From Embleya hyalina (GTDB taxonomy: Bacteria > Actinomycetota > Actinomycetes > Streptomycetales > Streptomycetaceae): a DNA stretch of 64,000 bases. The notes beneath the pieces are model-generated. The model had not been told where the DNA came from and did no database searches. It saw nothing but the letters and a program-made list of their open reading frames with translations. Of the stretch, positions 36,651 to 56,296 are shown in pieces. Position numbers and translations under genes: made by a program. Location of the stretch: assembly GCF_003967355.1 (NCBI RefSeq), contig NZ_BIFH01000019.1:310001-374000 (forward strand), given 5' to 3'. The first letter of the stretch is position 1. Every line of letters starts with the position of its first letter.

Positions 36651-36854
36651 CCGACGGTGCCGACGAGGACCGGGGTGTGACCGAGGCACGCGCCAAAGCG
36701 ACAACGGGATGATTCCCAAGTCCTGACGTGCCTGGACTCACCTGCGGCGGCGGGCGGCGGGGTCGCGTTCGGCGACCTGTCGGGCGGCCGAGCCGACGCC
36801 GGGGCGGGCGTACGGCCCGTGGGGCGGCGGGTGGTCAGGACGCGATCCCTTTTC

Positions 36855-36870
36855 TTGATCAATCGATCCA
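36855..36870. promoter_or_regulatory. TetR operator, copy 1
   Basis: TTGATC-AAT-CGATCCA is an imperfect inverted repeat 19 bases upstream of the tetR start at 36890. ATCAnnCGATCCAGA recurs at 37638 upstream of the next gene, which makes an autoregulatory operator likely. Confidence 0.6.
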
Positions 36871-36889
36871 GATAGGTTACGGTGAGGTC

Positions 36890-37468
36890 ATGGCAAGGAC
36901 CCGGGAGTTCGACACCGAGGCGGCGGTGAGCCGCGCCATGGAACTGTTCTGGAGGCGTGGCTTCGAGGCGACTTCGGTACGCGACCTGACCCAGGAACTG
37001 GGGATCGGGCAGGGGTCCTTGTATGCCGCGTTCGGCGACAAGGACGGCCTGTACCGGGCGGCGCTGGAGCACTACCGCACCACCCTGGCGGCGGCCGCCC
37101 TGCGCAGCCTGGAGGAGGGGGCGGACGCCCGGTCGGCGATCCGCACGATGCTGGTCGAGCGGATCCGGATCGCCGTGGAAGACGACGGCCGGGGCTGCCT
37201 GGTGGTCAACGCCGCCTGCGAGCGCCTGCCGGAGGATGCGGCGATCCGGCGCACCGTGCGGGACATGCAGGAGGCCAGTCGGGACGCGCTCGCCGAGGTG
37301 CTGCGGGTCGCGGCGGAGCGGGGCGAGATCGCGACGCGACACGATCCGCACGCCCTCGCCGCCTTCCTCGTCACCTTCCTCAACGGACTGCTGGTCTCCG
37401 CAAAGATCACCCCGGACGTCCACGCCCTCGAACCCCTCGTGGAGGTCGCGCTGGCCGCCCTCGACTGA
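36890..37468 (+). CDS. TetR-family transcriptional regulator
   Basis: 192 residues from ATG 36890. The N-terminal helix-turn-helix is textbook: TEAAVSRAMELFWRRGFEAT, then VRDLTQELGIGQGSLYAAFGDKDGLYRAAL. The ligand domain has GCLVVNAACERLPEDAAIRR, as in the TetR_C subgroup of YcdC/AcrR-like regulators with a conserved Cys near 105. Operators lie just upstream of itself and of the gene at 37737, so it probably represses both in response to a small hydrophobic ligand. Confidence 0.82.
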   Translation: MARTREFDTEAAVSRAMELFWRRGFEATSVRDLTQELGIGQGSLYAAFGDKDGLYRAALEHYRTTLAAAALRSLEEGADARSAIRTMLVERIRIAVEDDGRGCLVVNAACERLPEDAAIRRTVRDMQEASRDALAEVLRVAAERGEIATRHDPHALAAFLVTFLNGLLVSAKITPDVHALEPLVEVALAALD

Positions 37469-39069: not shown

Positions 39070-39345
39070 ATGATGTTCGACCACGACGAAATGCCCGTCC
39101 GCACGGGCCGAGCCGCCGTCAACGGAACGACTCTGCGCTACCGCACGGCCGGGTCCGGCCCCGCGCTGGTGCTGTTGCACGGCGTCCCCAAGACCGGCTA
39201 CCACTGGCGCCACCTGATCCCGAAGCTGACGCCCCACTACACCGTCGTCGTACCGGACCTGCGCGGCCTCGGCGACTCCGCCCGTCCCGCGGACGGCTAC
39301 GACTCCGCGACGATGAGCGACGACATCGCCGAGTTGATGACCCAC
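39070..39345 (+). pseudogene. truncated epoxide hydrolase-like alpha/beta hydrolase
   Basis: ATG 39070 begins a normal alpha/beta hydrolase: GRAAVNGTTLRYRTAGSGPA, LVLLHGVPKTGYHWRHLIP (oxyanion HGxP motif), then VVVPDLRGLGDSARPADGYD and MSDDIAELM. After about 92 residues, before the nucleophile elbow, homology stops and the sequence runs into the convergent ATPase gene and its terminator. So only the N-terminal third remains. It follows the frameshifted gene by 38 bases and probably once shared its operon. Confidence 0.65.
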
Positions 39346-39925: not shown

Positions 39926-39945
39926 TGAATCTGAAATCAAGTTCA
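39926..39945. promoter_or_regulatory. catabolic-island operator, site a
   Basis: TGAA-TC-TGAAATCA-AG-TTCA, fitting TGAA-NN-TGAATTCA-NN-TTCA with one central mismatch. It lies 44 bases upstream of the RsbW-like gene. One of five related sites (41981, 48018, 49767, 53056). Confidence 0.6.
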
Positions 39946-40147
39946 ACACCAGAGACCGCCACTGTCAACCGATTTGGCGAACATAATTGGACAAATCGGA
40001 GCTACTGTGTGGCCGCGATCGCCGCTCGGGCGATCGGCTCACCGGACGGCGAGGCCCCCACGATGTGCTCCCGAGCCGTGCGGGTACCGAACTCCAAGGC
40101 GTGGCCGGGGAGGCCGCCGGGTGCGGCGCCCCCGGCCCATACCGACT

Positions 40148-41212
40148 CTAGGGAGTCCCGAGCGCCGCCAGCCCCGCGGCGACGAGTGGCTGGACCGCCT
40201 GCCCGACGGTGCCGAACGCTCCGCCGGGTGTCTTGCCCTCCGTGTACCGCCGGTGGATGCCTTCGCAGATGACCGCGAGTTTGTAGTGGGCGAGAGCCAG
40301 GTGGAAGGACAGGTCCTCGACCGGACGGCGGCTTTGGTCGGCGTAGCGGGCGATGGTCGCCTCGGGGCCCAGGTAGCCCGGAGAGCGGCTCGCGTCGCCC
40401 AGTTCCGGCACGTCGAAGATCTCCGTCAGGGAGCTGTAGACGACGAGCAGCGCGAGATCCGTCAGGGGGTCGCCCAGCGTCGCCATCTCCCAGTCGAGAA
40501 TCGCCGTGACCCGGCCATCGCTGGTCAGCAGGTTGTCGAGCCGGTAATCGCCGTGCACGATGGCGGCGGTTCCGTCGTCCAGCGAGACATCCGCGACGGT
40601 CCCCGCCCGTGCCCCGAGCGCGTGCAGCAGTTCGTCCGCCCCCTCGATGGGGCGGCGCAGGGACCCGGCCATCTGCCGTCCCCAACGCTCGACCTGGCGG
40701 CGGACGAATCCCTGCGGACGTCCGAACTCGGCGAGGCCGATCGTTCTCGGATCGACCGCGTGAAGTCGGACCAGCGTGTCGATCATCACCTCGCAGATGC
40801 GGGTCGTCGCGGCGGGTCCCTCGGCCTTCAGCTGCTCCGCCGTGCGGAACGGTGTCCCCGCGACGCGCTCCATGACGTAGAACGGGGCGCCGATGACCTC
40901 GGGATCGTCGCAGTAGGCCATGGTTTCGGGAACGGGGACATCCGTGTGGGCGAGGGCCCTCATCACCACGAACTCCCGTCTCATGTCGTGCGCGGTCGCT
41001 TGGACGTGTCCGAGCGGGGGCCTGCGGAGGATGCGCACCGTCCGTCCGTCGAATATGGCGAAGTTCAGGTTCGACCGGCCGCCGGTGACCGGTTCGACCG
41101 TCAGCTCCGGACCGAGATCGCCGGGGGCGTGCCGCGCGTACCACTTCGCGAGGCGCGCGGGATCCGGCAGTGGCACGGTTCCGGCTTCTCGGCTTCCATC
41201 GTTCTCGGTCAC
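40148..41212 (-). CDS. ACAD10-like phosphotransferase (APH fold)
   Basis: 354 residues from GTG 41212, chosen for GAGGG five bases upstream and because homology starts soon after; ATG 41251 is an alternative. The aminoglycoside-phosphotransferase/choline-kinase fold is clear: VEPVTGGRSNLNFAIFDG (ATP loop), YVMERVAGTPF, the catalytic loop AAIVHGDYRLDNLL with Asp and Asn, and AILDWEMATLGDPLTDLA, whose first Asp binds Mg. This is the subgroup found beside acyl-CoA dehydrogenases (ACAD10/11 N-terminal domain), thought to phosphorylate hydroxylated acyl-CoAs before elimination. It follows tetR and serves the same pathway as the ACAD at 42040. Confidence 0.8.
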   Translation of the reverse strand: MTENDGSREAGTVPLPDPARLAKWYARHAPGDLGPELTVEPVTGGRSNLNFAIFDGRTVRILRRPPLGHVQATAHDMRREFVVMRALAHTDVPVPETMAYCDDPEVIGAPFYVMERVAGTPFRTAEQLKAEGPAATTRICEVMIDTLVRLHAVDPRTIGLAEFGRPQGFVRRQVERWGRQMAGSLRRPIEGADELLHALGARAGTVADVSLDDGTAAIVHGDYRLDNLLTSDGRVTAILDWEMATLGDPLTDLALLVVYSSLTEIFDVPELGDASRSPGYLGPEATIARYADQSRRPVEDLSFHLALAHYKLAVICEGIHRRYTEGKTPGGAFGTVGQAVQPLVAAGLAALGTP

Positions 41213-41300
41213 CAGCGCCCTCACAGCTCTTCGCCATCTGAAAACGTCCATCCCAAGACCCCCGTGGCCCCGGCTGTCCGGTTCGCCCCGATCGGCACGG

Positions 41301-41966
41301 TCACGCCGAGAGGTTGAGGCCGTTGACCCACAACCTGGTACAGACGGCGACGATCTCCTCGAGATCGCGTGGCCCCTCCTCCAGGGCGAAGCACTCGAAG
41401 GCCAGCCGGCTCACCATCAGGGACAGCGCACGGGCCGCCAACTCGGGGTCCACGGTGGGGTCCGCGAGTCCGCGGTCCTGCAACTCCTTGATCCGACGGG
41501 CGTTCCGCTCGCCGAAGGCGCGCGCGCTGCGCGCCCGGACTTCCTCGAATCGGGGATCGATCATCGCCACCTGCTGCATCAGCTTCATGAGCTTGGCATT
41601 GCGTTTGTAGGCGACCAGATAGGCCCGATTGCTCGCCTCGATGACGGCGGCCGGCCCCTCGTCCTCCGGCACATGGGGCATGCCGGGATGGAGCATGTCG
41701 TGCCGTGCCGCCTCGATCACCGCCGCGAAGACTTCTTCCTTGCCCTCGAAGTAGGTGTAGAAGGTCCCGATCGAGCAGGTCGCTTCGGCGGTGATGTCGA
41801 CGAGTCGAGCGTTGAGGAAGCCGTCGCGCTCGAATACGACTCGAGCCGCCTTGACCAGTGCTTCACGCGTACGCAGGCCCCGGCGAGTGGTGGGCATCTC
41901 CTTGGTCGTGGCGATTCCGGTCAGCGAGCCGATCGAGGCCATGGAGTCGCCGTCCGTGGCATTCAC
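41301..41966 (-). CDS. TetR-family regulator of the catabolic island
   Basis: 221 residues. Helix-turn-helix near 35-75: TREALVKAARVVFERDGFLN, then DITAEATCSIGTFYTYFEGKEEVFAAVI. The effector half is helical and ends RLWVNGLNLSA, like TetR proteins of fatty acid, terpenoid or steroid degradation. A 20-bp near-palindrome lies 15-34 bases upstream of its ATG and related copies precede four other units, which makes this protein the best candidate for their repressor. The ligand is probably a CoA thioester of the substrate. Confidence 0.82.
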   Translation of the reverse strand: MNATDGDSMASIGSLTGIATTKEMPTTRRGLRTREALVKAARVVFERDGFLNARLVDITAEATCSIGTFYTYFEGKEEVFAAVIEAARHDMLHPGMPHVPEDEGPAAVIEASNRAYLVAYKRNAKLMKLMQQVAMIDPRFEEVRARSARAFGERNARRIKELQDRGLADPTVDPELAARALSLMVSRLAFECFALEEGPRDLEEIVAVCTRLWVNGLNLSA

Positions 41967-41980
41967 GACATAACCATTGT

Positions 41981-42000
41981 CGAGTTCGGATTCATATTTG
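41981..42000. promoter_or_regulatory. catabolic-island operator, site b
   Basis: CGAG-TT-CGGATTCA-TA-TTTG, 15 of 20 positions identical to the reverse complement of site 53056. It lies between the ACAD stop and the tetR start, the expected place for autorepression. Confidence 0.55.
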
Positions 42001-42039
42001 ATGGTACATCCACTCCGCGGTCGGTGCCGTCACGTGCCG

Positions 42040-43269
42040 TCACACGGTGACGCGGGAACGCTCGCGCGTTCGTCGTGCCAGTTCACGGCGTGCGATGGCA
42101 CGCTTGTGCACCTCGTCCGGGCCGTCCGCGAAGCGCAGGGTGCGCAGTTCCGCGTACATGCTCGCGAGGGGGAAGTCGTCGGACAGCCCGCCTCCTCCGT
42201 GCACCTGGATGGCACGGTCGAGGACCTTCAGGGCCACGCCGGGCGCGGCCACCTTGATCGCGGAGATCTCGGTGCGCGCGGCCTTGTTTCCGACCGTGTC
42301 CATCAGCCAGGCCGTCTTGAGGGTCAGCAGCCGGACCATCTCCAGTTCCACGCGGGACTCGGCGATCCAGTCCTGGATGTTTCCGCGTTCGGACAGCGGC
42401 TGCCCGAAGGTGGTCCGGCTCTGCGCCCGGTCGACCATGAGGTCGAGCGCCCGCTCCGCCATGCCGATCGCCCGCATGCAGTGGTGAATCCGTCCCGGCC
42501 CCAGGCGGGCCTGACCGATCATGAACCCGTCCCCCTCACCGGCCAGCAGGGCCGACTTGGGGACTCGGACGTCCTCGAAGTGGATCTCGGCGTGGCCGAC
42601 ACGGTCCTGATAGCCGAAGACCGGCAGGCCGCGGACGATGCTGACCCCGGGTGTGTCGACCGGCACGATCAGCATGCTCTGCCGGCGGTACGGTTCGGCG
42701 CCGGGATCGGTCTCGCCCATGACGATGAGGACCCGGCACCTCTTGTGGAGGGCGTTGGAGATCCACCATTTGCGGCCGTTCAGGATGTAGTGGTCGCCGT
42801 CGAACTCCATGCGGAGTCGGATATTGGTGGCGTCGGAACTCGCCACGTCGGGCTCCGTCATCGCGAACGCCGAGGCGATCTCGCCGGCCAGCAGCGGCCT
42901 GAGCCACCGCTCCTTCTGCTCCTCGGTCCCGAACAGGGTCAGAATCTCCATGTTCCCCGTGTCGGGGGCGTTGGAGTTGGTCGCTTCCGGGGCCAGGTGG
43001 ATGCTGCGGCCGAGCATCTCGGCGAGTGGCGCGTATTCGACGTTGGTCAGACCAGGGCCCCACTCGGCGTGGGGGTGGAACAGGTTCCACAGTCCGCGCC
43101 CGCGAGCTTCCGCCTTCAGCTCCTCCAGGACGGGAGGATGGAAGTTGGGATCCCCCGACGCGCGCATCTGCTTCTCGTAGACGGCCTCCGCGGGATGGAC
43201 GCAGTCGTCCATGAAGGACAGAAGCTTCTCGTGGTACGCGTGGCCGCGGTCACTGATCGAAAAGTTCAC
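42040..43269 (-). CDS. acyl-CoA dehydrogenase
   Basis: 409 residues, the ACAD10/11-like branch of acyl-CoA dehydrogenases. FAMTEPDVASSDATN near residue 140 is the FAD/substrate signature, KWWISNALHKR near 172 the second conserved site, then GFMIGQARLGPGRIHHCMRAIG (residues ~260-281), SRTTFGQPL and the C-terminal QVHGGGGLSDDFPLA. It oxidises an acyl-CoA to the enoyl-CoA, passing electrons to an ETF. ATG 43269; 30 bases after the ABC ATPase stop, so probably the last gene of the transporter operon. The adjacent APH-fold gene suggests hydroxyacyl or branched substrates. Confidence 0.88.
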   Translation of the reverse strand: MNFSISDRGHAYHEKLLSFMDDCVHPAEAVYEKQMRASGDPNFHPPVLEELKAEARGRGLWNLFHPHAEWGPGLTNVEYAPLAEMLGRSIHLAPEATNSNAPDTGNMEILTLFGTEEQKERWLRPLLAGEIASAFAMTEPDVASSDATNIRLRMEFDGDHYILNGRKWWISNALHKRCRVLIVMGETDPGAEPYRRQSMLIVPVDTPGVSIVRGLPVFGYQDRVGHAEIHFEDVRVPKSALLAGEGDGFMIGQARLGPGRIHHCMRAIGMAERALDLMVDRAQSRTTFGQPLSERGNIQDWIAESRVELEMVRLLTLKTAWLMDTVGNKAARTEISAIKVAAPGVALKVLDRAIQVHGGGGLSDDFPLASMYAELRTLRFADGPDEVHKRAIARRELARRTRERSRVTV

Positions 43270-43299
43270 AGGGGTACTTCCTTCGCTTGCGTAGTCGCT

Positions 43300-44868
43300 T
43301 CACCGGGTTGTCGAGTCTTCGGGCACGACCTCGCCGCTCCGGAAGCACAGACGGGTCAGCAGGGCCTTGGTGGCCTGGGCGCCGAGTACGTCGGCCACGA
43401 GTGCGCCGTGCCTCATCACCAGGACGCGGTCGCAGACCGCCAACTCGTCGAAGTCACTGGAGATCAGCAGGATCGACGTGCCCTCGCGAGCGAGGCCGGC
43501 GATCGTCTCGTAGATCTCCGCGCGCGCTCCCACGTCGACGCCGACGGTCGGTTCGTCGAGGACGAGAACCGACGGGCCGGTGCGGACGTACTTCGCGAGA
43601 ACCACCTTCTGCTGGTTGCCGCCACTGAGGCTGAGCACGGGCCGTGAGGTGTCGTCGGTCTTCACCGCGAACCGCTCCGCGAGCCGGCGCCCGGTCCGCC
43701 GGGAGGACCTGGGCGAGAAGCCCGTGAACATGGTCCGGGCCCGGCCGAGCGCCGCGACCGCCAGGTTGGTGTCGATGGATTCACCGAGCAGCAACCCCTG
43801 GCTCCGGCGTTCCTCGGGGACGAGGGCAACGCCGGCGCGAATCGCGTCGTGGGGTGAACGCGGCGCATATCGTGCGCCGTCCAGCGTCATCGTCCCGCTG
43901 CTCGGCCGGTCGGCACCGATGAGGAGGCGCGCGAGCTCGGTGCGCCCGGCCCCGGCCAGGCCCGCGATTCCGAGCACCTCCCCGACGTGAAGGTCGAAGG
44001 TCGCGCCGCTCACCTTGTCCTTCCGGCCCAACCCGCGCACGGCGAGCCGCACGGGCCCGCGCGCCGCGTCCTTCGCGCCGACATGGCGCGTCGGTTCCTC
44101 GACCTCGTGTCCGACGATGTGACGCGTCAGCGACACGACGTCGAGCCGGTCGGATCGGTGCGAGCCCACGACCCGGCCGTCCCGCATGGTCGTCACCTCG
44201 TCGGAGACGAGAAGGACCTCTTCCAGACGGTGGGAGATGTAGAGCACCCCGACGCCGTTCGTGGTGAGTTCCCGGATCACCCCGTAGAGGAGATCGGCCT
44301 CGTCCTGAGTGAACGACGCGGTCGGTTCGTCCATCGCGATGAAGCGGGCCGGTCTCATCAGCGACCGTGCGAGCGAGACCATCCATCTGTCGGAGACGGA
44401 CAGCTTCTCGACCGGCACATCGAGCGGGATGTCGTAGCCGAGGAGCTCTCTCACCTCTCCGGCGCGCCCGCGCAGGGCCTTGGTGGCGACGAACCCCGAC
44501 CTTCCGGCAGTGATCCCCAGTGCCATGTTCTGCAGGCCGGTGAACTTCGGCACCAGATTGAGCTCCTGGTGCACGAAATTCAGCCCGAGATCGGCTGCCC
44601 GCTGGGGCGATTCGATCGGGACCACCCGACCGTCGAGGGCGATCTCTCCCCCGTCCGCCTGCTCGACTCCGGCCAGAATCCGGACCAGGGTCGACTTGCC
44701 GGCGCCGTTGGCACCGCACAGCGCCAATACCTCTCCGCCGCGCAGCGTGATCGAGACGTCGTCGAGCGCCTGAAGTCCTCCGAAGCGCTTGGAGATTCCC
44801 CGCATCTCCAGGAGTGAGGTGTGGTCGACCAGTTCGACGGGCGTGCCCCGTGCGCTCTCGATCGTCAC
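43300..44868 (-). CDS. sugar-type ABC importer ATPase (two fused NBDs)
   Basis: 522 residues with two ABC domains in tandem, the RbsA/MglA architecture. The first has Walker A GANGAGKST near 53, Q-loop VHQELN, and Walker B ARFIAMDEPTA; its signature is LSVSDRWM rather than LSGGQ, as is normal in this family. The second has a degenerate GLAGAGRTEL loop, the true signature LSGGNQQKVVLAKYV and VLVLDEPTVGVD. It energises import with the permease at 45789 and the lipoprotein at 46892. In this operon the substrate is more likely a carboxylic acid or alcohol of the pathway than a sugar. Confidence 0.85.
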   Translation of the reverse strand: MTIESARGTPVELVDHTSLLEMRGISKRFGGLQALDDVSITLRGGEVLALCGANGAGKSTLVRILAGVEQADGGEIALDGRVVPIESPQRAADLGLNFVHQELNLVPKFTGLQNMALGITAGRSGFVATKALRGRAGEVRELLGYDIPLDVPVEKLSVSDRWMVSLARSLMRPARFIAMDEPTASFTQDEADLLYGVIRELTTNGVGVLYISHRLEEVLLVSDEVTTMRDGRVVGSHRSDRLDVVSLTRHIVGHEVEEPTRHVGAKDAARGPVRLAVRGLGRKDKVSGATFDLHVGEVLGIAGLAGAGRTELARLLIGADRPSSGTMTLDGARYAPRSPHDAIRAGVALVPEERRSQGLLLGESIDTNLAVAALGRARTMFTGFSPRSSRRTGRRLAERFAVKTDDTSRPVLSLSGGNQQKVVLAKYVRTGPSVLVLDEPTVGVDVGARAEIYETIAGLAREGTSILLISSDFDELAVCDRVLVMRHGALVADVLGAQATKALLTRLCFRSGEVVPEDSTTR

Positions 44869-44925
44869 GAACAGGACCTTTCTTCGAACAAGGAGCCTCG
44901 GTGCGAGGCATCGGACCCGTCCCGC

Positions 44926-45738
44926 TCAGTGCGAGGCGAAGAACTCCAGCACGCGCGGAATGACGATGTCGGGGGCTTCGATCAGGGGGCTGTGTCCGAC
45001 TTCGGGGAGCATCACCAGCTCGGAGTCGGGCAGGGCGTCCGCGAGTTCCGCGGCCCAGTCCGGCGGCCGCACCCAGCATTCCTCGCCCGAGACCACCAGC
45101 GCCGGCGCGGCGATGTCGCCGAGCAGTTCCACCGCGTCGTGGCGGAGCATCACGCCCAGCATCGCCGGCTTGAGGGACGTCGGCAGGGCCGCCAGGCGCC
45201 CGATCCACAGGCCGGTCGTGTCCCGCTTCGCCGGGTCGTTGCGCGTGGATTCGCCGAGCATGACCCGTTCGAGCATCGCCAGGCGCTCACCGGTGAAGCC
45301 GTTCTCGCCGACGTCGTTGGTCCAGGCGACGTACTCGCCCACCGCCTCGGGCGGCTCCCGGCGTACCGACGACCCCAGGAAGACGATCGAGCGCACCAGG
45401 TCCGGGCGGAATGCCGCCAGGCGCGCCGCGACATCACCGCCCATCGAGGACGCGGCGACGTGCGCCGACGTGATGCCGAGCTTGTCCAGGAGGGCGGCCA
45501 TGTCGCCGGCCGCCTGCTCCATCGTGAGGATGTCGCGGTCGGCGCCGGCGCTGCGACCCTGTCCCCGGAACTCGGGGCGTACGAACCGGAACCGTCCGCG
45601 GCCGGCTTCGACGAGGTCGTCGAACATGCGGTTGTCGAGGAACAGCGAGTGGAGGCACAGCACCGGCGGGACGTCGGGTTCGTCGGTGTCGTCGACGTGC
45701 AGGGTGGTGCCTGCCACGGGAAGGGACTGCGAACTCAT
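44926..45738 (-). CDS. alpha/beta hydrolase within the ABC operon
   Basis: 270 residues from ATG 45738, with AAGGAG eight bases upstream. Fold landmarks: VLCLHSLFLDNRMFDDL, FVRPEFRGQGRS, nucleophile elbow VAASSMGGDVA (Ser near 99), ALVVSGEECWVRPP and the C-terminal His in LPEVGHSPLIEAP. It resembles ring-fission/enol-lactone hydrolases. Encoded between permease and ATPase of one importer, an unusual place that suggests it acts directly on the imported compound, for example cleaving an ester or a C-C bond. Confidence 0.8.
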   Translation of the reverse strand: MSSQSLPVAGTTLHVDDTDEPDVPPVLCLHSLFLDNRMFDDLVEAGRGRFRFVRPEFRGQGRSAGADRDILTMEQAAGDMAALLDKLGITSAHVAASSMGGDVAARLAAFRPDLVRSIVFLGSSVRREPPEAVGEYVAWTNDVGENGFTGERLAMLERVMLGESTRNDPAKRDTTGLWIGRLAALPTSLKPAMLGVMLRHDAVELLGDIAAPALVVSGEECWVRPPDWAAELADALPDSELVMLPEVGHSPLIEAPDIVIPRVLEFFASH

Positions 45739-45788
45739 TGCGTCGACTCCTTTGTTGACACGGGTGTTGGGGAGGGAAGGGGAGGGGG

Positions 45789-46793
45789 TCAAGCGCCGGC
45801 GGTTTTGCGACGTGCGACGGTCCCGACGCCGACGCCGATGATCAGCAGCAATCCCTGGAACAGGTACTGCCAGTAGGTCTCCATGCCGATCAGTGCGATG
45901 GCGTTGAATCCCACCGCGACGGTGATCACGCCGACGAGGGTGCCGACGATGTGGAACTGGCCGTCGCGGAGCACGGCGGAGCCGAAGAACGCGGCGGCGA
46001 AGGCGCTCAGGAGATAGGAGTCCCCCGCGGAGACCGACGCACCCGCGGTACGGGTGGCGAGCAGGACGCCGGTGAGTCCGGCCAGGGTTCCGCAGATCAT
46101 GAAGCCGACGACACGAACCCGCTCGACCCGGATGCCGGACAGGCGCGCCGCGACGGGGTTTCCGCCCACCGCCTGCATGGACTGCCCCAGGACCGTGCGG
46201 TTCAGCAGCAGCCAGAGCACTGCCGCCAGGACGATCATGATCCACACGGGATACGGGATCCCGAGGAACCGTCCGAGACTGATGGCGAGGAAGTCGTCCG
46301 GATCCTTCAGCCCCACGGGCCGACCGTCCGCGACGGCATAGTTGACGCCGACCGCCATCGTGCCCACGCCCAGCGTGGCGACCAACGCGTTCACGTTGAG
46401 CACGGTCACGATGAATCCGTTGAGCAGGCCGATCGCGGCGCCCACACCCACCGCGACGGCGAACGCGGCGGGGATGGACGCGCCGGCGTCCACGATCAGC
46501 TTGCACGCGAGCACGCCACTGAGGCCGGCGATATTGCCGATGCTGAGGTCGAACTCGCCGGTGACCAGCGCGAAGGTCAGTCCCATCGCGATGACGGCCG
46601 ACAGCGCGCTCTGGTTGAGGATGTTGATGACGTTGTCGGAGGTGGCGAAGGTCGTCGGCGCCAGGGCGGCGACGATCGCGACCAGGATCCCCAACATGCC
46701 GAGGGAGCCGTAGCGGCCGATGACCCGCCAGGCCCGGGTCGTGCGCGCGGCGGGGGCCAACGGCGTGTGTCCTGTGTCGGTGACTGCGGTCAT
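45789..46793 (-). CDS. sugar-type ABC importer permease
   Basis: 334 residues from ATG 46793 with AGGAG upstream. About nine or ten membrane helices of the RbsC/BPD_transp_2 family; typical motifs are TGEFDLSIGNIAGLSG, LNVNALVATLGVGTMAVGV (residues ~125-143), NRTVLGQSMQAVGGNPVAARLSGI and RTAGASVSAGDSYLLSAFAAAFFG. It forms the transmembrane channel, as a dimer, with the fused ATPase. Same strand and spacing as its partners; the hydrolase lies between it and the ATPase. Confidence 0.85.
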   Translation of the reverse strand: MTAVTDTGHTPLAPAARTTRAWRVIGRYGSLGMLGILVAIVAALAPTTFATSDNVINILNQSALSAVIAMGLTFALVTGEFDLSIGNIAGLSGVLACKLIVDAGASIPAAFAVAVGVGAAIGLLNGFIVTVLNVNALVATLGVGTMAVGVNYAVADGRPVGLKDPDDFLAISLGRFLGIPYPVWIMIVLAAVLWLLLNRTVLGQSMQAVGGNPVAARLSGIRVERVRVVGFMICGTLAGLTGVLLATRTAGASVSAGDSYLLSAFAAAFFGSAVLRDGQFHIVGTLVGVITVAVGFNAIALIGMETYWQYLFQGLLLIIGVGVGTVARRKTAGA

Positions 46794-46891
46794 GGTGACT
46801 CCTCGGGGGACCGGACGAGAGCGGCTGAGCGGGGGTTGGGGGGAGAGGGCGGGCCCGGTGGAGCGGCGGGACGCCCGCCCGCCGCCCTCGT

Positions 46892-47860
46892 TCACCCGAG
46901 TGCTTTGGGGAACACCTTGAGGAATTCCGTGACGTTCTCGGGCGTGACCAGGTACATCGTGGGTGCGAGGTCCCGAGGCTTGGCGTTGGTGCCTTCCGTG
47001 ACGAACTCGGGAGTCAGTGCGCCCAGTCGGGCGCCCTCGGCCGTCGGGTCGAAGTACGACGTCGCCCTGAGATCGCCCCGGCGCACGGCCTCGATCGCCG
47101 CCGGTGTCCCGTCGTGCCCGTAGACGAGCACGTCCTTGCGTCCCGCCGCCTGCAGCGCCGAGATCGCGCCGCGCGCCGGATCGCCGAAGCAGCCCCAGAT
47201 CGCCAGCTTGCCCTTCCCCGCGGGGTGTGTGGTCAGCCATGCGCGGGTGAACTCGCTGCCGGCTTCCACCTGGCCCGGGATCGGGACCTCTTTGCGCGTG
47301 ACGTGAATGCTCGTCGCCTTGAGCCGGTCCTCGACCTCCTGTTCGCGACCGACGCAGGGCAGTCCGGACTTGTAGCCCAGCAGGAGTACATCGCCCTCGT
47401 TGCCGAGGTCGTCGGTCAGCAGCTTGCCGGTTTCCTTGGCGTTGCTGCGGCCGAAGTCCAGACTGACCTGGACACCTTCGGTGGTGCCGCCCCCCACGGA
47501 GACGACGGGGATTCCCGCCCCCTTCGCCTGTCGCACTCCGGCGGCGAGAGTGTCGCTGGGGAAGATGGCGATGACGATCAGGTCGACCTTCTTCTGCACG
47601 TAGTTGCCGATACCGCTGATCGCCTTGTCCGGCGCGCCCTGCGAGTCGACCGACGAGACGCTCCAGCCCTTCTTCTCGGCGTAGTCGACGTAGGCGTCGA
47701 GGATCGACTCCGAGGCCGGGTCGCTCGATGCGAACCGCACGATGCCGACGGTGTAGGAGTCACCGCCGGCCTTCGCCGAAACGGCGCCACCGCACGCGGC
47801 CGTGGTCGTCGTCATGACGGCGGCGGCGATGGCCGACCCGATCTTCACGTGTCTTCGCAC
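46892..47860 (-). CDS. sugar-type ABC importer substrate-binding lipoprotein
   Basis: 322 residues from GTG 47860, with AAGGAG six bases upstream. A lipoprotein signal (KIGSAIAAAVMTTTTAAC) with acylated Cys at 23 precedes a type I periplasmic-binding fold: YTVGIVRFASSDPASESILD, KVDLIVIAIFPSDTLA, AGIPVVSVGGG, then IWGCFGDPARGAISAL and DVLVYGHDGTPAAIEAV. It captures the substrate outside the membrane. First gene of the importer operon; a regulon operator lies 158 bases upstream. Ligand cannot be assigned. Confidence 0.85.
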   Translation of the reverse strand: MRRHVKIGSAIAAAVMTTTTAACGGAVSAKAGGDSYTVGIVRFASSDPASESILDAYVDYAEKKGWSVSSVDSQGAPDKAISGIGNYVQKKVDLIVIAIFPSDTLAAGVRQAKGAGIPVVSVGGGTTEGVQVSLDFGRSNAKETGKLLTDDLGNEGDVLLLGYKSGLPCVGREQEVEDRLKATSIHVTRKEVPIPGQVEAGSEFTRAWLTTHPAGKGKLAIWGCFGDPARGAISALQAAGRKDVLVYGHDGTPAAIEAVRRGDLRATSYFDPTAEGARLGALTPEFVTEGTNAKPRDLAPTMYLVTPENVTEFLKVFPKALG

Positions 47861-48017
47861 GGAGTCTCCTTCGGTTCCCGGTCCGACTGTGCGGACCCTG
47901 TTCGGACGGCGCCCGGAGCACCTCTCGGGACACCCGACGCGGCAATCACCCGAGGGCTCGTACGGGTGGTCGATTCACCCGAAAGCCGGTCTGCGGAGCC
48001 GCGCACAGCACGCTAAT

Positions 48018-48037
48018 TGAATCTGGACTCAAGTTCA
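48018..48037. promoter_or_regulatory. catabolic-island operator, site c
   Basis: TGAA-TC-TGGACTCA-AG-TTCA; the flanking bases 48017 and 48038 extend the palindrome to TTGAA...TTCAA. Upstream of the importer operon. Differs from site a in only two of its 20 bases. Confidence 0.6.
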
Positions 48038-48235
48038 AGTATGGCCGGAAATCGATCCGGATTCCCGGGATGATCCGTGTAATGACACCGCTCCCGTGGT
48101 GCGTCAGGCGGGGGAGGAGGGGTGACGAAGGGAACCGCCGGCCGGATTTCGGCCACGGCGAAGCCCGACGGCCGGCAGAGGTGCACACGCCTGCGGTCGG
48201 GTGAGCGGACGGGGGAGTGCCGCGGAACGGAGGCC

Positions 48236-49735
48236 TCAGGCGCGGCCGGCGGACTCCCTCAGGAGGCCGGGGTCGATCGACCGCTTGAGGATCTTGCCCG
48301 TCGACCCCTTGGGAAGCTCGTCCACGAAGGCGATCAGATGCGGGACCTTGTAGGCGGACAGCTGGGACTTGGCCCAGGTCTTGAGCCCTTCGGGGTCGGG
48401 GGCCGCACCGGGCCGCAGGACGATCGCGGCGCCGACCTCCTCGCCGTAGTAGTCGTCCGGGACCCCGAGCACCGCCGCCTCCACGATGTCCGGATGCCGG
48501 TAGAGCACTTCCTCGACCTCGCGCGGGTAGACGTTGTAGCCGCCGCGGATGATCAGCTCCTTGGTCCGTCCGACGATGGTCAGATACCCCTCGGCGTCGA
48601 TACATCCCAGGTCGCCGGTCCGCAACCAGCCGTCGACCAGTTCCGACCGGGTGGCCTCGGGCCGGTTCCAATATCCCTTCATCACGGTCGTGCCCCTGAT
48701 GTACACCTCGCCCACGTCATCGGGACCGAGTACCGTGCCGTCCTTGCGGATCTGCAACTCGGCTCCGGGCATGGCGACGCCCACGGTCCCGGCCTTCCGC
48801 GGCTTGTGGATGTCGTTGAAGGCGGCGACGCCCGTCGTCTCGGAGAGTCCGTAGCCTTCGAGGAGCGTGCATCCGAGCCGCTCCTCGTAGGCACGGAGGA
48901 CCTCGACCGGGATGGTCGCGCCGCCGGATGTCCCGAGCCGGAACCGCTCGAAGTCCGCCGGCCGAAACGCGCCGGCCTCCCGCAGCATCGCGATCCACAT
49001 CGTGGGGACGGCCCCCAGCGCCGTCAGCCGACCGTCGCGCACCAGCTCCAGCATGGCGCGCGGTTGGAACCTTTCGCAGAGGGTCAGCGACCCGCCGGCC
49101 ACCAGCGTCGTGTTCATGATGACCGCCTGCCCGTAGACGTGGAACAGCGGCAACGCCGTCCCGACGCGGTCCCGGGAACCGATCCCCGAGACCTTCGCGA
49201 ACTCCACGGCGTTGGCCACCAGGTTGGCCGCCGTCAGCTCCGCGCCCTTGGGGCGGCCGGTCGTTCCCGAGGTGTAGAGGATGATCGCGGTGTCGTCGGG
49301 CTGATGTTCCCATGCCTCCAACCGGGGCGGGACCTCGAAGTGCGCGCCGGGTCCGATCCGCCAGAACGGGACGCCGGCGGTGGCCGCGGCGACCTCGGCG
49401 GACTCCGATATGCCTTCCCAGGCAATGACGAGCGAGGGCCGTGCGTCCTGTAGGACGTGGCCGATCTCGGCGGGCGTCGCCATCGTGTTGAGGGTGACCA
49501 CCGTGGCGCCGAGCGTGTGCAGGCCGTAGTAGACGATCGGGAACTCCGGCACCGTCGGAACCACCAGGACGACGCGGTCCAGCGGACCGACACCGGCCCT
49601 GTGGGCCGCCGTCGCCACACGTCCGCTCGCTTCACGCAGTTGTCCGAAGGTGAGCTCCACCGACCCGGACCTGACGGCCGGGCTCCTCGGGCTCGCGTCG
49701 GCCTTCCGCCACACAAGTGATGCCACATTGACCAT
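48236..49735 (-). CDS. acyl-CoA ligase (AMP-binding)
   Basis: 499 residues from ATG 49735, chosen over an upstream start because GGAGGA lies six bases before it. The adenylation motifs are all present: ILYTSGTTGRPKGAEL near residue 157, EGYGLSETTG near 290, GWLRTGDLGCIDAEGYLTI near 374, GRTKELIIRGGYNVYPREVE and the C-terminal Lys in KGSTGKILKR. It activates a carboxylic acid to its CoA thioester, the entry step of the pathway. A weak operator copy lies 32 bases upstream. Medium-chain, aromatic or cyclic acids are all possible substrates. Confidence 0.88.
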   Translation of the reverse strand: MVNVASLVWRKADASPRSPAVRSGSVELTFGQLREASGRVATAAHRAGVGPLDRVVLVVPTVPEFPIVYYGLHTLGATVVTLNTMATPAEIGHVLQDARPSLVIAWEGISESAEVAAATAGVPFWRIGPGAHFEVPPRLEAWEHQPDDTAIILYTSGTTGRPKGAELTAANLVANAVEFAKVSGIGSRDRVGTALPLFHVYGQAVIMNTTLVAGGSLTLCERFQPRAMLELVRDGRLTALGAVPTMWIAMLREAGAFRPADFERFRLGTSGGATIPVEVLRAYEERLGCTLLEGYGLSETTGVAAFNDIHKPRKAGTVGVAMPGAELQIRKDGTVLGPDDVGEVYIRGTTVMKGYWNRPEATRSELVDGWLRTGDLGCIDAEGYLTIVGRTKELIIRGGYNVYPREVEEVLYRHPDIVEAAVLGVPDDYYGEEVGAAIVLRPGAAPDPEGLKTWAKSQLSAYKVPHLIAFVDELPKGSTGKILKRSIDPGLLRESAGRA

Positions 49736-49766
49736 GTCTGTCCTCCGCGCGATCGGGAAGCCGGCC

Positions 49767-49786
49767 GTCAAATCAATTGAAGATCG
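49767..49786. promoter_or_regulatory. catabolic-island operator, site d (weak)
   Basis: GTCA-AA-TCAATTGA-AG-ATCG, 12 of 20 positions matching site e. Its position 32 bases upstream of the ligase start supports it more than the match does. Confidence 0.3.
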
Positions 49787-49816
49787 ATCCGCATCGATGC
49801 GGGCGACGGCGAATCC

Positions 49817-50644
49817 CTATTCGGGAAGCACCAGCGTCACGCCGCCGTCGATGACGGCCACCTGCCCGGTGATCCACGACGCGCGCTCCGAGAGCAGGAA
49901 GGCGACCATGGCGCTCACATCGGTGGGATGACCCAGACGGCGCAAGGGATACGGCCGCGCCGCCTCCGCCTCCCTGCCCTCGTAGAGGGCCGACGCGAAC
50001 GAGGTGGTCACGACGGCGGGCGCGACGGCGTTCACCCGCACACGCGGGGCCAGTTCGAGAGCGAGCTGCCTGGTCAGGTGGGCGAGCATCGCCTTCGAGG
50101 CACCGTACATGCCGATGTTCTCGGCCGGACGAAGCGCGGCGATCGACGAGATGTTGACGACGGCACCCCCGTGCCGGCGCATCCAGGCGTGGTGCACCTT
50201 TCGGGTCCACGCCAGTGGGGCCAGGGCGTTGACCTCGACGACCTTGCGCGCCGCCGGAAGCCCCAGATCCATGAGCGGCCCGTGGACGGGATTGATCCCG
50301 GCGTTGTTCACGAGGAAGTCGATGCCGCCGAAGGCCTCCAGCGTCCGCGATACGACCTCGTCCTGATGCCCCTCGTCGTCCACGCGCCCGGCCACGCCGA
50401 TCGTGACATTCGGCCCCAGTTCCCCGACGGTCTGCCTCAACACGTCGCCGTCGCGGGCGGTCACACAGACACGTGCGCCCCGCCGCACCAGCTCCGCCGC
50501 GATGGCGCGGCCGATGCCGCGGCTCGCCCCGGTCACGATCGCGGTCCTGCCGTCGAACGACCGATCGTCGGCCGCGCTCGTGCCGGTGTCCTTCACATAC
50601 GCCCTGCCGCCCGGTTCCGGTGCGGTCGTACCTTGGGTGGTCAC
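49817..50644 (-). CDS. SDR-family oxidoreductase
   Basis: 275 residues from GTG 50644. Classical short-chain dehydrogenase: NAD(P) loop IVTGASRGIGRAIA near residue 38, DFLVNNAGINP, the Ser of VVNISSIAAL, and the YGASK catalytic pair near 175. Arg after the Gly motif and ARD at the end of strand 2 favour NADP. The ending AVIDGGVTLVLP is typical. Four bases separate it from the thiolase gene upstream, so it is in the thiolase operon. Expected to oxidise or reduce a hydroxy/keto intermediate of the pathway. Confidence 0.85.
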   Translation of the reverse strand: MTTQGTTAPEPGGRAYVKDTGTSAADDRSFDGRTAIVTGASRGIGRAIAAELVRRGARVCVTARDGDVLRQTVGELGPNVTIGVAGRVDDEGHQDEVVSRTLEAFGGIDFLVNNAGINPVHGPLMDLGLPAARKVVEVNALAPLAWTRKVHHAWMRRHGGAVVNISSIAALRPAENIGMYGASKAMLAHLTRQLALELAPRVRVNAVAPAVVTTSFASALYEGREAEAARPYPLRRLGHPTDVSAMVAFLLSERASWITGQVAVIDGGVTLVLPE

Positions 50645-50648
50645 CCGC

Positions 50649-51815
50649 TCACAGGACCTCGAAGAGGCCGGCGGCGCCCATGCCGCCGCCGACGCACATG
50701 GTCACCACGACATGCCTCGCGTTGCGACGACGCCCTTCCAGGAGCGCGTGTCCCACGGCGCGAGCGCCGGTCATTCCGTACGGATGGCCGATGGCGATCG
50801 CGCCGCCGTTGACGTTGTACCGGTCCGGGTCGATCCCGAGAGCATCCCGGCAGTGGACGGCCTGCGACGCGAAGGCCTCGTTGAGCTCCCACAGGTCGAT
50901 GTCGTCGACGTGCAATCCGTGCCGTTCGAGGAGCTTGGGTATCGCGAAGACGGGCCCGATGCCCATCTCGTCGGGCTCACATCCGGCCACCGCGATGCCT
51001 TTGTAGAGCCCGAGCGGCTCCAGGCCCCGGCGACTCGCGAAAGACGACTCCATCAGGACCACCGCAGCGGCGCCGTCGGACAGTTGTGAAGCGTTTCCGG
51101 CCGTGACCGAGGCCGTCCGCGTGACCTCGCCGTCTTCGAGCACGGTGCGCAGACCCGCCAGACCCGCCGGCGTCGTCGAGGGGCGGTTGCCCTCGTCCAG
51201 CAGCAGGTCGGGTGCCGACGGATGCGGAACGATCTCGCTCTCGAAGAGGCCCGAGCGTTGTGCGTGTGCCGTGCGTATTTGGGAGGCCAGCGCGTACTCG
51301 TCCTGCCTTTCCCTGCTGACGCCGTAGCGCTCGGCCACGAGTTCGGCGGTGTGGAGCATCGGGATGTACATGGGGATCCCGGCCCGGTCGAACCACGGAT
51401 CGTGCGCGCGGTACCGGTTGGTGTGCTCGTTTCGGACCAGCGAGATGGACTCCACTCCGCCGCCCACGACCACGTCCATGCCGTCGGTGATGATCTGCTT
51501 CGCCCCGATCGCGATCGCCATCAGCCCGGACGAACACTGCCGGTCGATCGTCATGCCGGGAACCGTGACGGGCAGACCGGCTCGCAGCGCCGACTGCCGG
51601 GCCACGTTGTAGCCGGCCGCGCCTTCCGGGAGGCCCGAGCCCAGGATCACGTCGTCGACCTCGCCGGGCTCGAGACCCGCCCGGGTGATGGCGTGGCCGA
51701 TCGCATGGCCCGCGAGGTCCTGCGGCTGTACTTCACGGAAGGCGCCCTTGTATGCGCGGCCTATGGGGGTACGCGCGGTCGTGACCACGACCGCCGCGCG
51801 GGTGGGGATGTTCAT
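50649..51815 (-). CDS. acetyl-CoA acyltransferase (thiolase)
   Basis: 388 residues from ATG 51815, with GGAG eight bases upstream. The nucleophilic Cys94 lies in DRQCSSGL, the [16 protein letters not shown] segment near 237 is intact, and the C-terminal [16 protein letters not shown] and [15 protein letters not shown] supply the His and second Cys. It cleaves a 3-ketoacyl-CoA with CoA to give acetyl- or propionyl-CoA. Sits between two SDR genes; with ligase and ACAD it forms a beta-oxidation-like route, though no enoyl-CoA hydratase gene is seen in the window. Confidence 0.9.
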
Positions 51816-51891
51816 GTGTCTGCTCCGGGATCTGTGCTCGATGGGGCGCCGGGTTGTTCGATGCGTGTGATGCGAGGGCCTGGTCGCGGGG

Positions 51892-52647
51892 CTACCGGGG
51901 AGGCATGCGCAGTGCACCGTCCAGCCGGATCGTCTCGCCGTTGAGGTAGTCGTGCTCGATGATCATCCGTACGAGTCGGGCGTGTTCCCCGGGCGTGCAC
52001 AGTCGTTTCGGGAAGGGAACGCTCTCCGCCAGGCCCGCGCGGTATTCGTCACCGACGGCCGCGAGCATCGGGGTGTCGACGATGCCCGGCGCGATGGTGC
52101 ACACCCGAATGCCGTACTGCGCGAGATCCCGAGCCGCCGGGAGTGTCAGTCCCACGATGCCGCCCTTGCTGGAGGAGTACGCGGCCTGGCCGATCTGGCC
52201 GTCGAAGGCGGCGACCGAGGCGGTGTTGATGATGACGCCGCGCTGTCCGCCGCTGAGCGGTTCCGTCCGGGCCATCCTTTCTGCGGCGAGCGCCAGGACC
52301 ACGAACGAACCGACGAGGTTGATCCGGACGACCTTCTCGTAGAGACCCAGGTCGTGGGTTCCGCGCCGGCCGAGGATGCGCGCCGAGGGCCCGATCCCCG
52401 CACAGTTGACAACGACCCGCAGCGGTTGCCTCTCACCGGCTCGGGCGATCGCGGCGCGAACCTGCTCCTCGTCGGTCACGTCGGCCTCCAGATAGACCAC
52501 GCCCTCGATCTCCGGGGCCGCCGCGATGGAAGGCGCCAGGTCCAGGACGTGCACGGTGGCGCCGTGCTCGGCGAGCAAGGCGGCCGTGGCTGCTCCCAGC
52601 CCCGAGGCACCGCCGGTGACCACAGCCGCTGTTCCCGCCAGTTTCAT
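51892..52647 (-). CDS. SDR-family 3-hydroxyacyl-CoA dehydrogenase (HSD10-like)
   Basis: 251 residues from ATG 52647 with GGAGACACGG just upstream. NAD loop [17 protein letters not shown], then VLDLAPS (Asp, NAD preference), [39 protein letters not shown] with catalytic Tyr and Lys, and the closing [17 protein letters not shown]. This pattern is that of type II 3-hydroxyacyl-CoA dehydrogenase (HSD10), which oxidises 3-hydroxyacyl-CoAs, often branched or steroid-like ones. First gene of the operon leading into the thiolase. The frame remains open upstream into a hydrolase relic. Confidence 0.85.
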
Positions 52648-52654
52648 CCGTGTC

Positions 52655-52850
52655 TCCTTGCACTTCGCATCGGTAGGCGTTCGGGGCGGTGAGAGGGCGC
52701 GGTCGAGGAAGTCGCCGACCGCGTCGTCGAATTCGACAGGTTTCTCGAGTGCCGGACAGTGGCCCGTGCCTGCCGGGACGGCGGTCTCGCCCGGCGCGAT
52801 CAGGCAGCGGTGGCGTCGACCGTCTCCCGAGTGGCGAGCGGGTCGGCGTC
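52655..52850 (-). pseudogene. alpha/beta hydrolase C-terminal relic
   Basis: Upstream of the HSD10-like gene, and in the same frame, the minus strand reads GETAVPAGTGHCPALEKPVE, then FDDAVGDFLDRAL, the usual end of an alpha/beta hydrolase with the catalytic His. Slightly further upstream another frame gives ADPLATRETVDATAA, the preceding part, so at least one frameshift separates them. The stop of the hydrolase is lost. 52851-53055 shows no other gene. Confidence 0.4.
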
Positions 52851-53055
52851 GCCTCGGCCGGGAGCGTCGCCTCGATCGTGTGGAGGCCGTCCCGCCGATC
52901 GAACGTCGCGCATCCGGTGCGGTCGGCCTTCATGACGGCCGGCGTGGCACCGGACCGTCCCGTCCGCTCGGCGTGCGGGCGTCGGTCCGGGGTCGCGCGA
53001 CGCCTCGCGTGATCGTGTCGTGCGAAGGCGGCGCCCGTACGCCGATCATGTTAGT

Positions 53056-53075
53056 CAAATATGAATTCAAGTTCA
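53056..53075. promoter_or_regulatory. catabolic-island operator, site e
   Basis: CAAA-TA-TGAATTCA-AG-TTCA, with a perfect 8-base central palindrome. It lies 409 bases upstream of the HSD10/thiolase operon, beyond the hydrolase relic, probably marking the original start of that unit. Confidence 0.6.
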
Positions 53076-54811: not shown

Positions 54812-56296
54812 TCAGCTTTCGGTTCGACTCGATCGGCCCGGGCCCGGCACACCGGCCGGGGCTGTGGTCGGATCGGTCTCGGGTGGGCGTCGGCGGGCGA
54901 GGGCGAGGCCGGCCATCGTCGTGATCGCCATCGCGGCGACGCCGACCAGCGCCGCGGTCGTGTAGGCGTCGTCGTTCGGGAAGAGGCGGCCCGTGGGGGT
55001 GCCGGCGGCCAGGATCAGACCGCCGATGGCGCTGCCCAGGGAGTACCCGACGCTGCGGACGACGTAGTTGAAGCTCATGGCGCTCGACGTCTCGCTCTTG
55101 GGGGTGACGGCCAGGATGACGCCGGGCATGGCGGCCGAGAAACTGCCCACGCCGAAGCCCAGCACGCCCATGGCCGCGAGCAGTTCGGCCGGGTTGGACC
55201 GGGCGGTGGCGAACAGGACGAACCCGCCGCCGACGATGGCGGCGCTGCCGGCCAGGATCAGGGGGCCGTCGATCCGTTCGCGGACCCACGGCGTGAGCTT
55301 GCCGGCGACGAACCCCAGTACGGAGAACGGGATGAGGACCAGCCCCGCCACGAAGGTGGTCAGTCCGAAGCCGTAGCCGGCGCCGTGCGGCGTCTGCGCG
55401 TAGCGGGTGATGAGCGTGAGCAGGAGGTACATGCCGCTCCCGCCGACGAACATGGCGATGTTCGCCCCGGCGACCGCCGGGTGCCGTACCGCCCGGACGT
55501 CGATCAGGGGCGTCTTGGTGCGCAGTTCGGAAACGGTCCAGACGCAGAGCAGGAGTACGGCGGCGACGGCGAGGGTCACCGCCACGGCGAGGTGTCGGCT
55601 CCACAGGCTCCTCTCGCCGGCCAGGAACAGGACGAGGAGCAGTCCACCCGCCAGGACGAGCGCACCGGCCACGTTCACGTGGGCGGAGCGGCCCTCGGGA
55701 GCCGCGGGTATGGAGCGCCACGCGGTCACGAAGGCGATGGCGGTGACGAGCAGGCCGAGGCCGTAGGCGGCCCGCAGTCCGCCGAACTCGGCGAGCAGCG
55801 CGGCCAGCGGGTAGCCGACGCCGGCTCCGATGATGGAGACCACCGAGATCAGGGCGATCGTGGCCGCGCCGCGCTCCTCGGGGAGATGGTCGCGGGCCAC
55901 GCCCATCATCAGCGCCGTGAGACCGAGTCCGACGCCCTGGGCCGCTCTGCCCACGAGCAGCCAGGCGAACGGCAGCGGCAGCACGGTGAGCGCACCGCCG
56001 CCGACGACGATCGCCAGCGTGACGAGAATCGTGGCCCGCCGGTGCGGACCGGCTCCCAGCCGGCCGAGGACGGGTGTGGCGACGGCGCCGCTGAGCAGGG
56101 CGATGGTCAGCGTCCACTGCGCGCTGTCGAGGGAGACGTGGAACGTGGTTGCCACGCTGGTGACGAGCGGCGTCCCGAGGCTGCCGACCGTCGCCACGAC
56201 CAGGGCGACGAACACCAGGGCGGGGACCAGCAGACGTGCCTCGGAACGTATCGGGGCAGTGCTCGTGGGCCGGTCGTGAGCCTGCTCCGCGGTCAC
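54812..56296 (-). CDS. MFS transporter (14-helix type)
   Basis: 494 residues from GTG 56296, which overlaps the marR stop (GTGA); longer upstream frames are low complexity. About 14 hydrophobic segments; GRLGAGPHRRATI near residue 75 is a relaxed motif A, and ALISVVSIIGAGVGYPLAALL near 150 the motif C zone of antiporters. Expected to export a toxic compound using the proton gradient. Coupled to a MarR repressor, the usual design for an inducible efflux pump. Confidence 0.82.
   Translation of the reverse strand: MTAEQAHDRPTSTAPIRSEARLLVPALVFVALVVATVGSLGTPLVTSVATTFHVSLDSAQWTLTIALLSGAVATPVLGRLGAGPHRRATILVTLAIVVGGGALTVLPLPFAWLLVGRAAQGVGLGLTALMMGVARDHLPEERGAATIALISVVSIIGAGVGYPLAALLAEFGGLRAAYGLGLLVTAIAFVTAWRSIPAAPEGRSAHVNVAGALVLAGGLLLVLFLAGERSLWSRHLAVAVTLAVAAVLLLCVWTVSELRTKTPLIDVRAVRHPAVAGANIAMFVGGSGMYLLLTLITRYAQTPHGAGYGFGLTTFVAGLVLIPFSVLGFVAGKLTPWVRERIDGPLILAGSAAIVGGGFVLFATARSNPAELLAAMGVLGFGVGSFSAAMPGVILAVTPKSETSSAMSFNYVVRSVGYSLGSAIGGLILAAGTPTGRLFPNDDAYTTAALVGVAAMAITTMAGLALARRRPPETDPTTAPAGVPGPGRSSRTES

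Follow-up and report, generated by a model that had tools for sequence, protein, structure and literature searches.

The locus and its question

What controls, and what is controlled, where one 20-bp near-palindrome recurs upstream of genes that all lie on the same strand? The question is raised by a 64,000-nucleotide stretch of Embleya hyalina DNA (NCBI RefSeq assembly GCF_003967355.1, contig NZ_BIFH01000019.1, positions 310,001 to 374,000 of the forward strand; hereafter the window, numbered from its first letter), which has a G+C content of ~70% and belongs to a 12.05-Mb genome in 78 contigs. An earlier note on this DNA had described five such sites and joined the units behind them into one regulon of the TetR-family protein encoded at 41301-41966. 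Our analysis makes it probable, with good confidence, that the palindrome is the operator of this TetR, a predicted repressor that its substrate would release and that would control 4-hydroxyacyl-CoA catabolism along with a dedicated ABC importer. Binding by this protein is strongly supported by phylogenetic footprinting, and the count of five units proved too high: three promoters are firm, the self-site of tetR is probable, and the ligase site finds no support. The sites and the proposed binder are as follows.

39926-39945, minus strand: operator a, TGAATCTGAAATCAAGTTCA (plus-strand letters), on TTGAAC-17-TATGGA, 44 bp upstream of the RsbW-like gene; highest score in the window
48018-48037, minus strand: operator c, TGAATCTGGACTCAAGTTCA, on TTGAAC-17-TAGCGT; precedes the predicted importer operon
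53056-53075, minus strand: operator e, CAAATATGAATTCAAGTTCA, on TTGAAC-17-TAACAT; precedes the predicted HSD10-thiolase-SDR-ligase operon
41981-42000, minus strand: degenerate self-site of tetR, CAAATATGAATCCGAACTCG on the minus strand; probable, not firm
49767-49786, no strand: weak site d of the earlier note, not supported
41301-41966, minus strand: TetR-family repressor (TetR_N plus EthR_C), the proposed binder

Three sites stand clear of the background

The earlier consensus, TGAA-NN-TGAATTCA-NN-TTCA, was scored over its 16 fixed positions. The sites at 39926, 48018 and 53056 carry one, two and two mismatches; the degenerate site at 41981 carries six, and 49767 carries seven (six at the nearby offset 49778). 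Because the window holds no site with three or four mismatches, two with five, 13 with six and 67 with seven, the first three stand clear of its background by this measure and the last two do not. There are three matches in the window with at most three mismatches versus none in any of 100 shuffles, and a scan of all 12.05 Mb with the consensus returned at two mismatches or fewer only these three sites, and two others with three. Sites a and c do differ at 2 of 20 bases, as had been noted, and the placement of the sites before genes is correct in general, except that operator e sits 409 bp from the start of HSD10, a gap that may be due to an apparent remnant of a C-terminal alpha/beta hydrolase at approximately 52690-52810 (minus strand; recognized by eye, without a domain match).

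The operator accompanies homologues of the TetR

In a family sample of 394 genomes, TetR homologues at E 1e-40 occur in 31, the window's own included, and in none of three other species of the host genus. The 32 family loci analyzed, 20 kb each, contain 50 operator sites at one mismatch or fewer versus none in the reversed sequences. Under a strict pattern, the operator is found in 18 of the 394 genomes, in 16 of the 31 that encode the TetR versus 2 of the 363 others (Fisher 3.6e-18); the window's own genome is counted among the 16, with 39926 alone fitting. One of the two matches without the TetR lies inside an open frame (G188) and the other has no homologue of a query gene nearby (G386), and two TetR-bearing genomes (G236 and G385) hold further sites distant from the main locus that adjoin another tetR-like sequence.

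We built two matrices from foreign sites, the first from 24 distinct site forms in the family loci, with window sites excluded, and the second from 76 sites in 78 loci. These loci derive from a search of 84,980 species' genomes that gave 323 candidate stretches, of which the best 80 were taken. Both place 39926, 48018 and 53056 at ranks 1, 2 and 3 in the window, and with the second the score of 53056 was unmatched in any of 100 simulated 64-kb sequences. A site of at least 20 bits is present in 62 of the 78 loci encoding TetR homologues versus 3 of 78 after reversal; as the Streptomyces loci of the two samples partly overlap, the non-Streptomyces loci, as classed by record title, were counted separately, with 44 of 57 versus 3 of 57. 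There is some circularity in this procedure, as one earlier matrix was trained on window sites and the later collecting and strict patterns were each chosen after prior results, and the weight therefore rests on the near absence of the operator elsewhere and on the reversed controls.

The 78 loci hold 118 sites of at least 18 bits, 100 of them preceding, by at most 600 bp, a homologue of a pathway gene of the window or the relatives: SDRx in 34 cases, tetR in 20, thiolase in 18, acad in 11, ligase in 9, HAD in 6, and kinase and hydratase in one each. The best-conserved letters are TGAA..yGA..TCr..TTCA. The GAATTC core on which the note had based the operator is rejected as an essential element, since relatives mostly have GACGTC, the commonest core, or GACGCC. 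The relatives' form, TGAANNNGANNTCNNNTTCA, matches six places in the window's genome at one mismatch or fewer, among them 39926 (none) and 48018 (one); 53056 falls short of it.

A near-perfect operator also stands just upstream of paralogous TetR genes (~50% identity) at L048:17647-19450, L057:8341-10121 and L064:9640-10301, with a DUF2855 gene as the neighbor in L048 and L057; its presence before a paralogous tetR with other neighbors points to the protein rather than to the neighborhood. These distributions make the TetR encoded at 41301 the very likely binder of the operator. The same predicted switch recurs in many actinomycetes.

The protein itself matches TetR_N with 36.6 bits (cut-off 24) and EthR_C with 33.1 (cut-off 27), as expected of the TetR family, and its model (mean pLDDT 86.8) has an all-helical EthR-like fold. 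Among the Foldseek matches listed, mycobacterial EthR is the best (TM by query length 0.69-0.76, 18-21% identity), followed by FasR and by Thermus FadR with acyl-CoA; identity to these regulators is low, and target set, operator and ligand are not shared as far as compared. The modeled fold fits an acyl-CoA or lactone ligand without proving one. The best NCBIfam model is that of the ScbR gamma-butyrolactone receptors (NF041196, residues 29-190), membership of which we reject at 54.1 bits against a curated cut-off of 150. The palindromic operator expected for a TetR-family repressor is found through the relatives, the protein's own site in the window being degenerate.

A probable self-site and an unsupported ligase site

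The site at 41981 ranks 22 in the window with the first foreign matrix and 11 with the second. Its half-site CAAATATGAAT-N-C has exactly two occurrences in 12.05 Mb, at 41981 and 53056, and its surroundings agree at 20 of 27 bases with the DNA upstream of tetR in Mycolicibacterium sp. CBMA 247, whose TetR is the nearest homologue found (75% identity), a likeness equaled by 5 of 2000 random 190-bp windows. With sites preceding tetR in relatives making up 20 of the 118, autoregulation through 41981 is probable on comparative grounds. The ligase operator at 49767 is rejected, with its 7 of 16 mismatches and ranks of 2133 and 4260 by the two matrices. The ligase, which starts 81 bp behind the stop of the SDR gene, is more simply, and probably, a member of the HSD10-thiolase-SDR-ligase operon.

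The putatively controlled genes resemble an ACAD11- and lva-type pathway

All genes of the proposed regulon lie on the minus strand. They run from right to left as SDR/HSD10 (SDR, short-chain dehydrogenase/reductase), thiolase, SDR and ligase; binding protein, permease, alpha/beta hydrolase, ATPase and acyl-CoA dehydrogenase (ACAD); tetR and kinase; and the RsbW-like gene.

51892-52647, minus strand: SDR (HSD10 of the earlier note), 3-hydroxyacyl-CoA dehydrogenase candidate
50649-51917, minus strand: thiolase
49817-50644, minus strand: SDR oxidoreductase
48236-49735, minus strand: acyl-CoA ligase (AMP-binding)
46892-47860, minus strand: substrate-binding protein of the importer (Peripla_BP_4)
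45789-46793, minus strand: importer permease (BPD_transp_2), start assigned within a longer open frame
44926-45738, minus strand: alpha/beta hydrolase, possible lactonase; nearest models PcaDC/PcaD (3-oxoadipate enol-lactonase), under their cut-offs
43300-44868, minus strand: ATPase of the ABC importer, sugar-type, AraG/RbsA-like
42040-43269, minus strand: acyl-CoA dehydrogenase of the ACAD10/11 and LvaC type, catalytic Asp present
40148-41251, minus strand: APH-fold kinase with homology to the kinase domain of ACAD11; proposed role like that of LvaA
39427-39882, minus strand: RsbW-like ATPase (HATPase_c_2, 151 amino acids)

The function proposed for the regulon follows from the kinase and the ACAD, whose type the earlier note had missed. 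Compared with solved ACADs, the window protein matches ACAD11 chains at E 4e-130 to 3.5e-123 and the putative ACAD 4hr3 at 1.4e-128, the next best being 4.8e-48. In the alignment (chain index = paper number - 1) it has the catalytic Asp of ACAD11 (D753) together with R626, H634 and R637, and the motif with the Asp is present in 51 of the 55 acad matches of at least 60% in relatives. The kinase matches the ACAD11 kinase domain at E 1.4e-43, with the bacterial chains 9o56 and 3dxp scoring higher, and its alignment shows the HGDxxxxN and DWE motifs (as hgdyrldnl and ldwem). By homology, then, kinase and ACAD are related to the two halves of ACAD11: mammalian ACAD10 and ACAD11 carry both domains on one polypeptide, whereas here each has a gene of its own.

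The Asp and the R/H/R residues are said in PMC12440821 to be unique to ACAD10/11 and LvaC, and the same paper gives ACAD10 a HAD-like domain; a HAD-family gene often lies near the relatives' loci. Separate kinase, ACAD and acyl-CoA ligase genes are likewise present in the lva operon of Pseudomonas putida for levulinate and 4-hydroxyvalerate, the likeness being drawn from published descriptions. As described in the lva literature, the kinase LvaA, the ACAD-family protein LvaC and the acyl-CoA synthetase LvaE feed beta-oxidation (PMC12440821, PMC11342911, PMC10164729): LvaA phosphorylates 4-hydroxyacyl-CoA, and LvaC removes the phosphate and partly hydrates the product, which then enters beta-oxidation (PMC11342911, PMC10164729). 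Such partial hydration could explain why there is no hydratase among the window genes. The two systems differ in control, lva being under the sigma-54-type LvaR and the present genes under the predicted control of a TetR whose palindromic operator overlies the core promoter (two TetR and one MarR are the regulators identified in the window; the scan for sigma-54 activators covered part of the open reading frames), and in content, this regulon including a sugar-type ABC importer, a thiolase and the RsbW-like gene.

The ligase, ACAD, SDR and thiolase are also the standard set of beta-oxidation, and homology does not give the substrate, so the TetR regulon might serve ordinary fatty-acid or branched-chain beta-oxidation with a kinase acting on some other substrate. 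We consider this unlikely, given that the ACAD is far closer to ACAD11 and 4hr3 than to other solved ACADs and carries the Asp together with the R/H/R set, and that an APH homologue is present in 34 of the 55 relatives' loci holding an acad homologue.

Preferring 4-hydroxyacyl-CoA catabolism, we propose that the pathway would start with ABC import, perhaps opening of a lactone by the hydrolase, and CoA activation by the ligase. The APH kinase would then phosphorylate the 4-hydroxyl and the ACAD would eliminate the phosphate and partly hydrate, followed by SDR oxidation and thiolysis by the thiolase.

Gene content varies among relatives

In relatives, the acad operon often has an added SDR, hydratase and kinase, and the thiolase gene often stands beside a HAD gene. 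In a Nocardioides metagenome-assembled genome (L111), the genes for ligase, SDR, HAD, binding protein, ATPase, permease, hydratase, ACAD, kinase and TetR share one orientation and are preceded by a weak 17-bit site, and in L065 an MFS gene lies at the operator. Transport thus looks exchangeable, with an ABC importer here and in L111 and an MFS protein in L065; the importer type and the hydrolase are otherwise unseen in the 78 loci and may be local additions.

The window ACAD shares 84% identity with that of L083, 65% with another copy in its own genome and 62-64% with those of sister species. From these identities, and from the lack of a tetR at E 1e-40 in the sister species, horizontal gain appears likely. 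The second ACAD10/11-like ACAD (G000:C14:303705-304898) has counterparts in three sister species.

The strongest operator, 39926, precedes the RsbW-like gene, homologues of which at E 1e-25 occur in 5 of the 394 family genomes. A paralogue in the same genome (58% identity) and a sister species' copy (56%) differ from it in the DNA farther upstream, the similarity starting ~12 bp before the ATG. The window copy has thus apparently been brought under this operator, and the gene may be a passenger. Upstream of paralogues of the gene (G000:C41:114302 and G001:C105:120369; L081, L077), common AGATCTCA-type elements are seen by eye, perhaps another operator. It is also conceivable, and in our judgment quite improbable, that the TetR, beyond sensing food, acts as the receptor of a signal compound (a lactone or a 4-hydroxy acid) and governs its import and destruction, with the RsbW-like protein, an anti-sigma-type kinase, as the relay to a network of sigma factors or of development.

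A truncated N-terminal piece of an alpha/beta hydrolase (39160-39345, plus strand) adjoins the RsbW-like gene, and at the other end an MFS transporter and the MarR regulator (54812-56751, minus strand) adjoin the regulon without an operator-like site upstream. No Rfam RNA reaches its gathering score within 36000-60000.

Promoter geometry and mode of control

Read toward the gene, many of the relatives' sites have TTGAAC, 17 bases, and then TATAAC, TATACA or similar. Among the 100 assignable sites, 58 have both TTGA and TA at this spacing, nine TTGA only, 21 TA only and 12 neither, and the three firm window sites each overlie a -35 box and spacer. A repressor bound to an operator in this position would block RNA polymerase, and we infer repression on these grounds. 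Some TetR-family proteins activate, and FasR is labeled an activator in the list of matched models; that the operators are positive control sites is nonetheless highly improbable, because the overlap with -35 box and spacer, at 58 of 100 relatives' sites and all three firm window sites, is the usual arrangement for a repressor. Nor is there much chance that another regulator within ~15 kb, the second TetR (36728-37468, plus strand) or the MarR (56293-56751, minus strand), binds the operator and the 41301 TetR is a mere neighbor or target: the second TetR is rejected as binder, having no homologue at E 1e-15 in the 36 and 78 loci scanned, the MarR used as a query in relatives' loci is absent among the matches listed, and the operator follows the 41301 TetR even with different neighbors, as beside the paralogous tetR of L057 and L064. 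The second TetR, with TetR_N and TetR_C_13, is only distantly similar to the 41301 protein.

In the mechanism that we favor, the 41301 TetR would cover the -35 box and spacer (TTGAAC-17-TANNNN) and block RNA polymerase until released by an inducer, for which a 4-hydroxy acid, the corresponding gamma-lactone or the CoA thioester is the likeliest candidate. Its firm predicted targets would be the importer-hydrolase-ACAD operon, the HSD10-thiolase-SDR-ligase operon and the RsbW-like gene, with tetR-kinase as a probable autoregulated one.

Several observations weigh against this explanation. Sites are missing at one mismatch or fewer from 5 of the 32 family loci and at 20 bits from 16 of the 78 homologue loci, which themselves are the top of 323 candidates, with more distant homologues outside the sample; 18 of the 118 sites have no recognized target gene, 42 of the 100 assigned sites lack the full TTGA-17-TA pattern, and four places elsewhere in the genome match TGAANNNGANNTCNNNTTCA at one mismatch. 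Gene content also agrees imperfectly: the RsbW-like gene has no match in 36 loci (E 1e-8) or in the 78 (E 1e-20), the alpha/beta hydrolase has no counterpart in the 78, the binding protein and the permease have one each (L111), and, unlike in many relatives, there is no hydratase or HAD among the annotated window genes. Finally, binding, repression, operon structure, inducer and substrate are all predicted, from motif, position, conservation, linkage to tetR, homology and residues.

Implications

In literature matches on the pathway with a TetR in actinomycetes, the motif strings, LvaR and TetR regulons, the regulon was not recognized among the titles and abstract openings listed. What is proposed here is an lva-type pathway under a regulator from a different family. 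For Streptomyces, Nocardia, Rhodococcus, mycobacteria and others, the analysis predicts which regulator, operator and targets go with the bacterial counterpart of ACAD10/11. A 4-hydroxy-acid biosensor is a possible application, and roles could be suggested for many TetR and APH-kinase genes that lack annotation.

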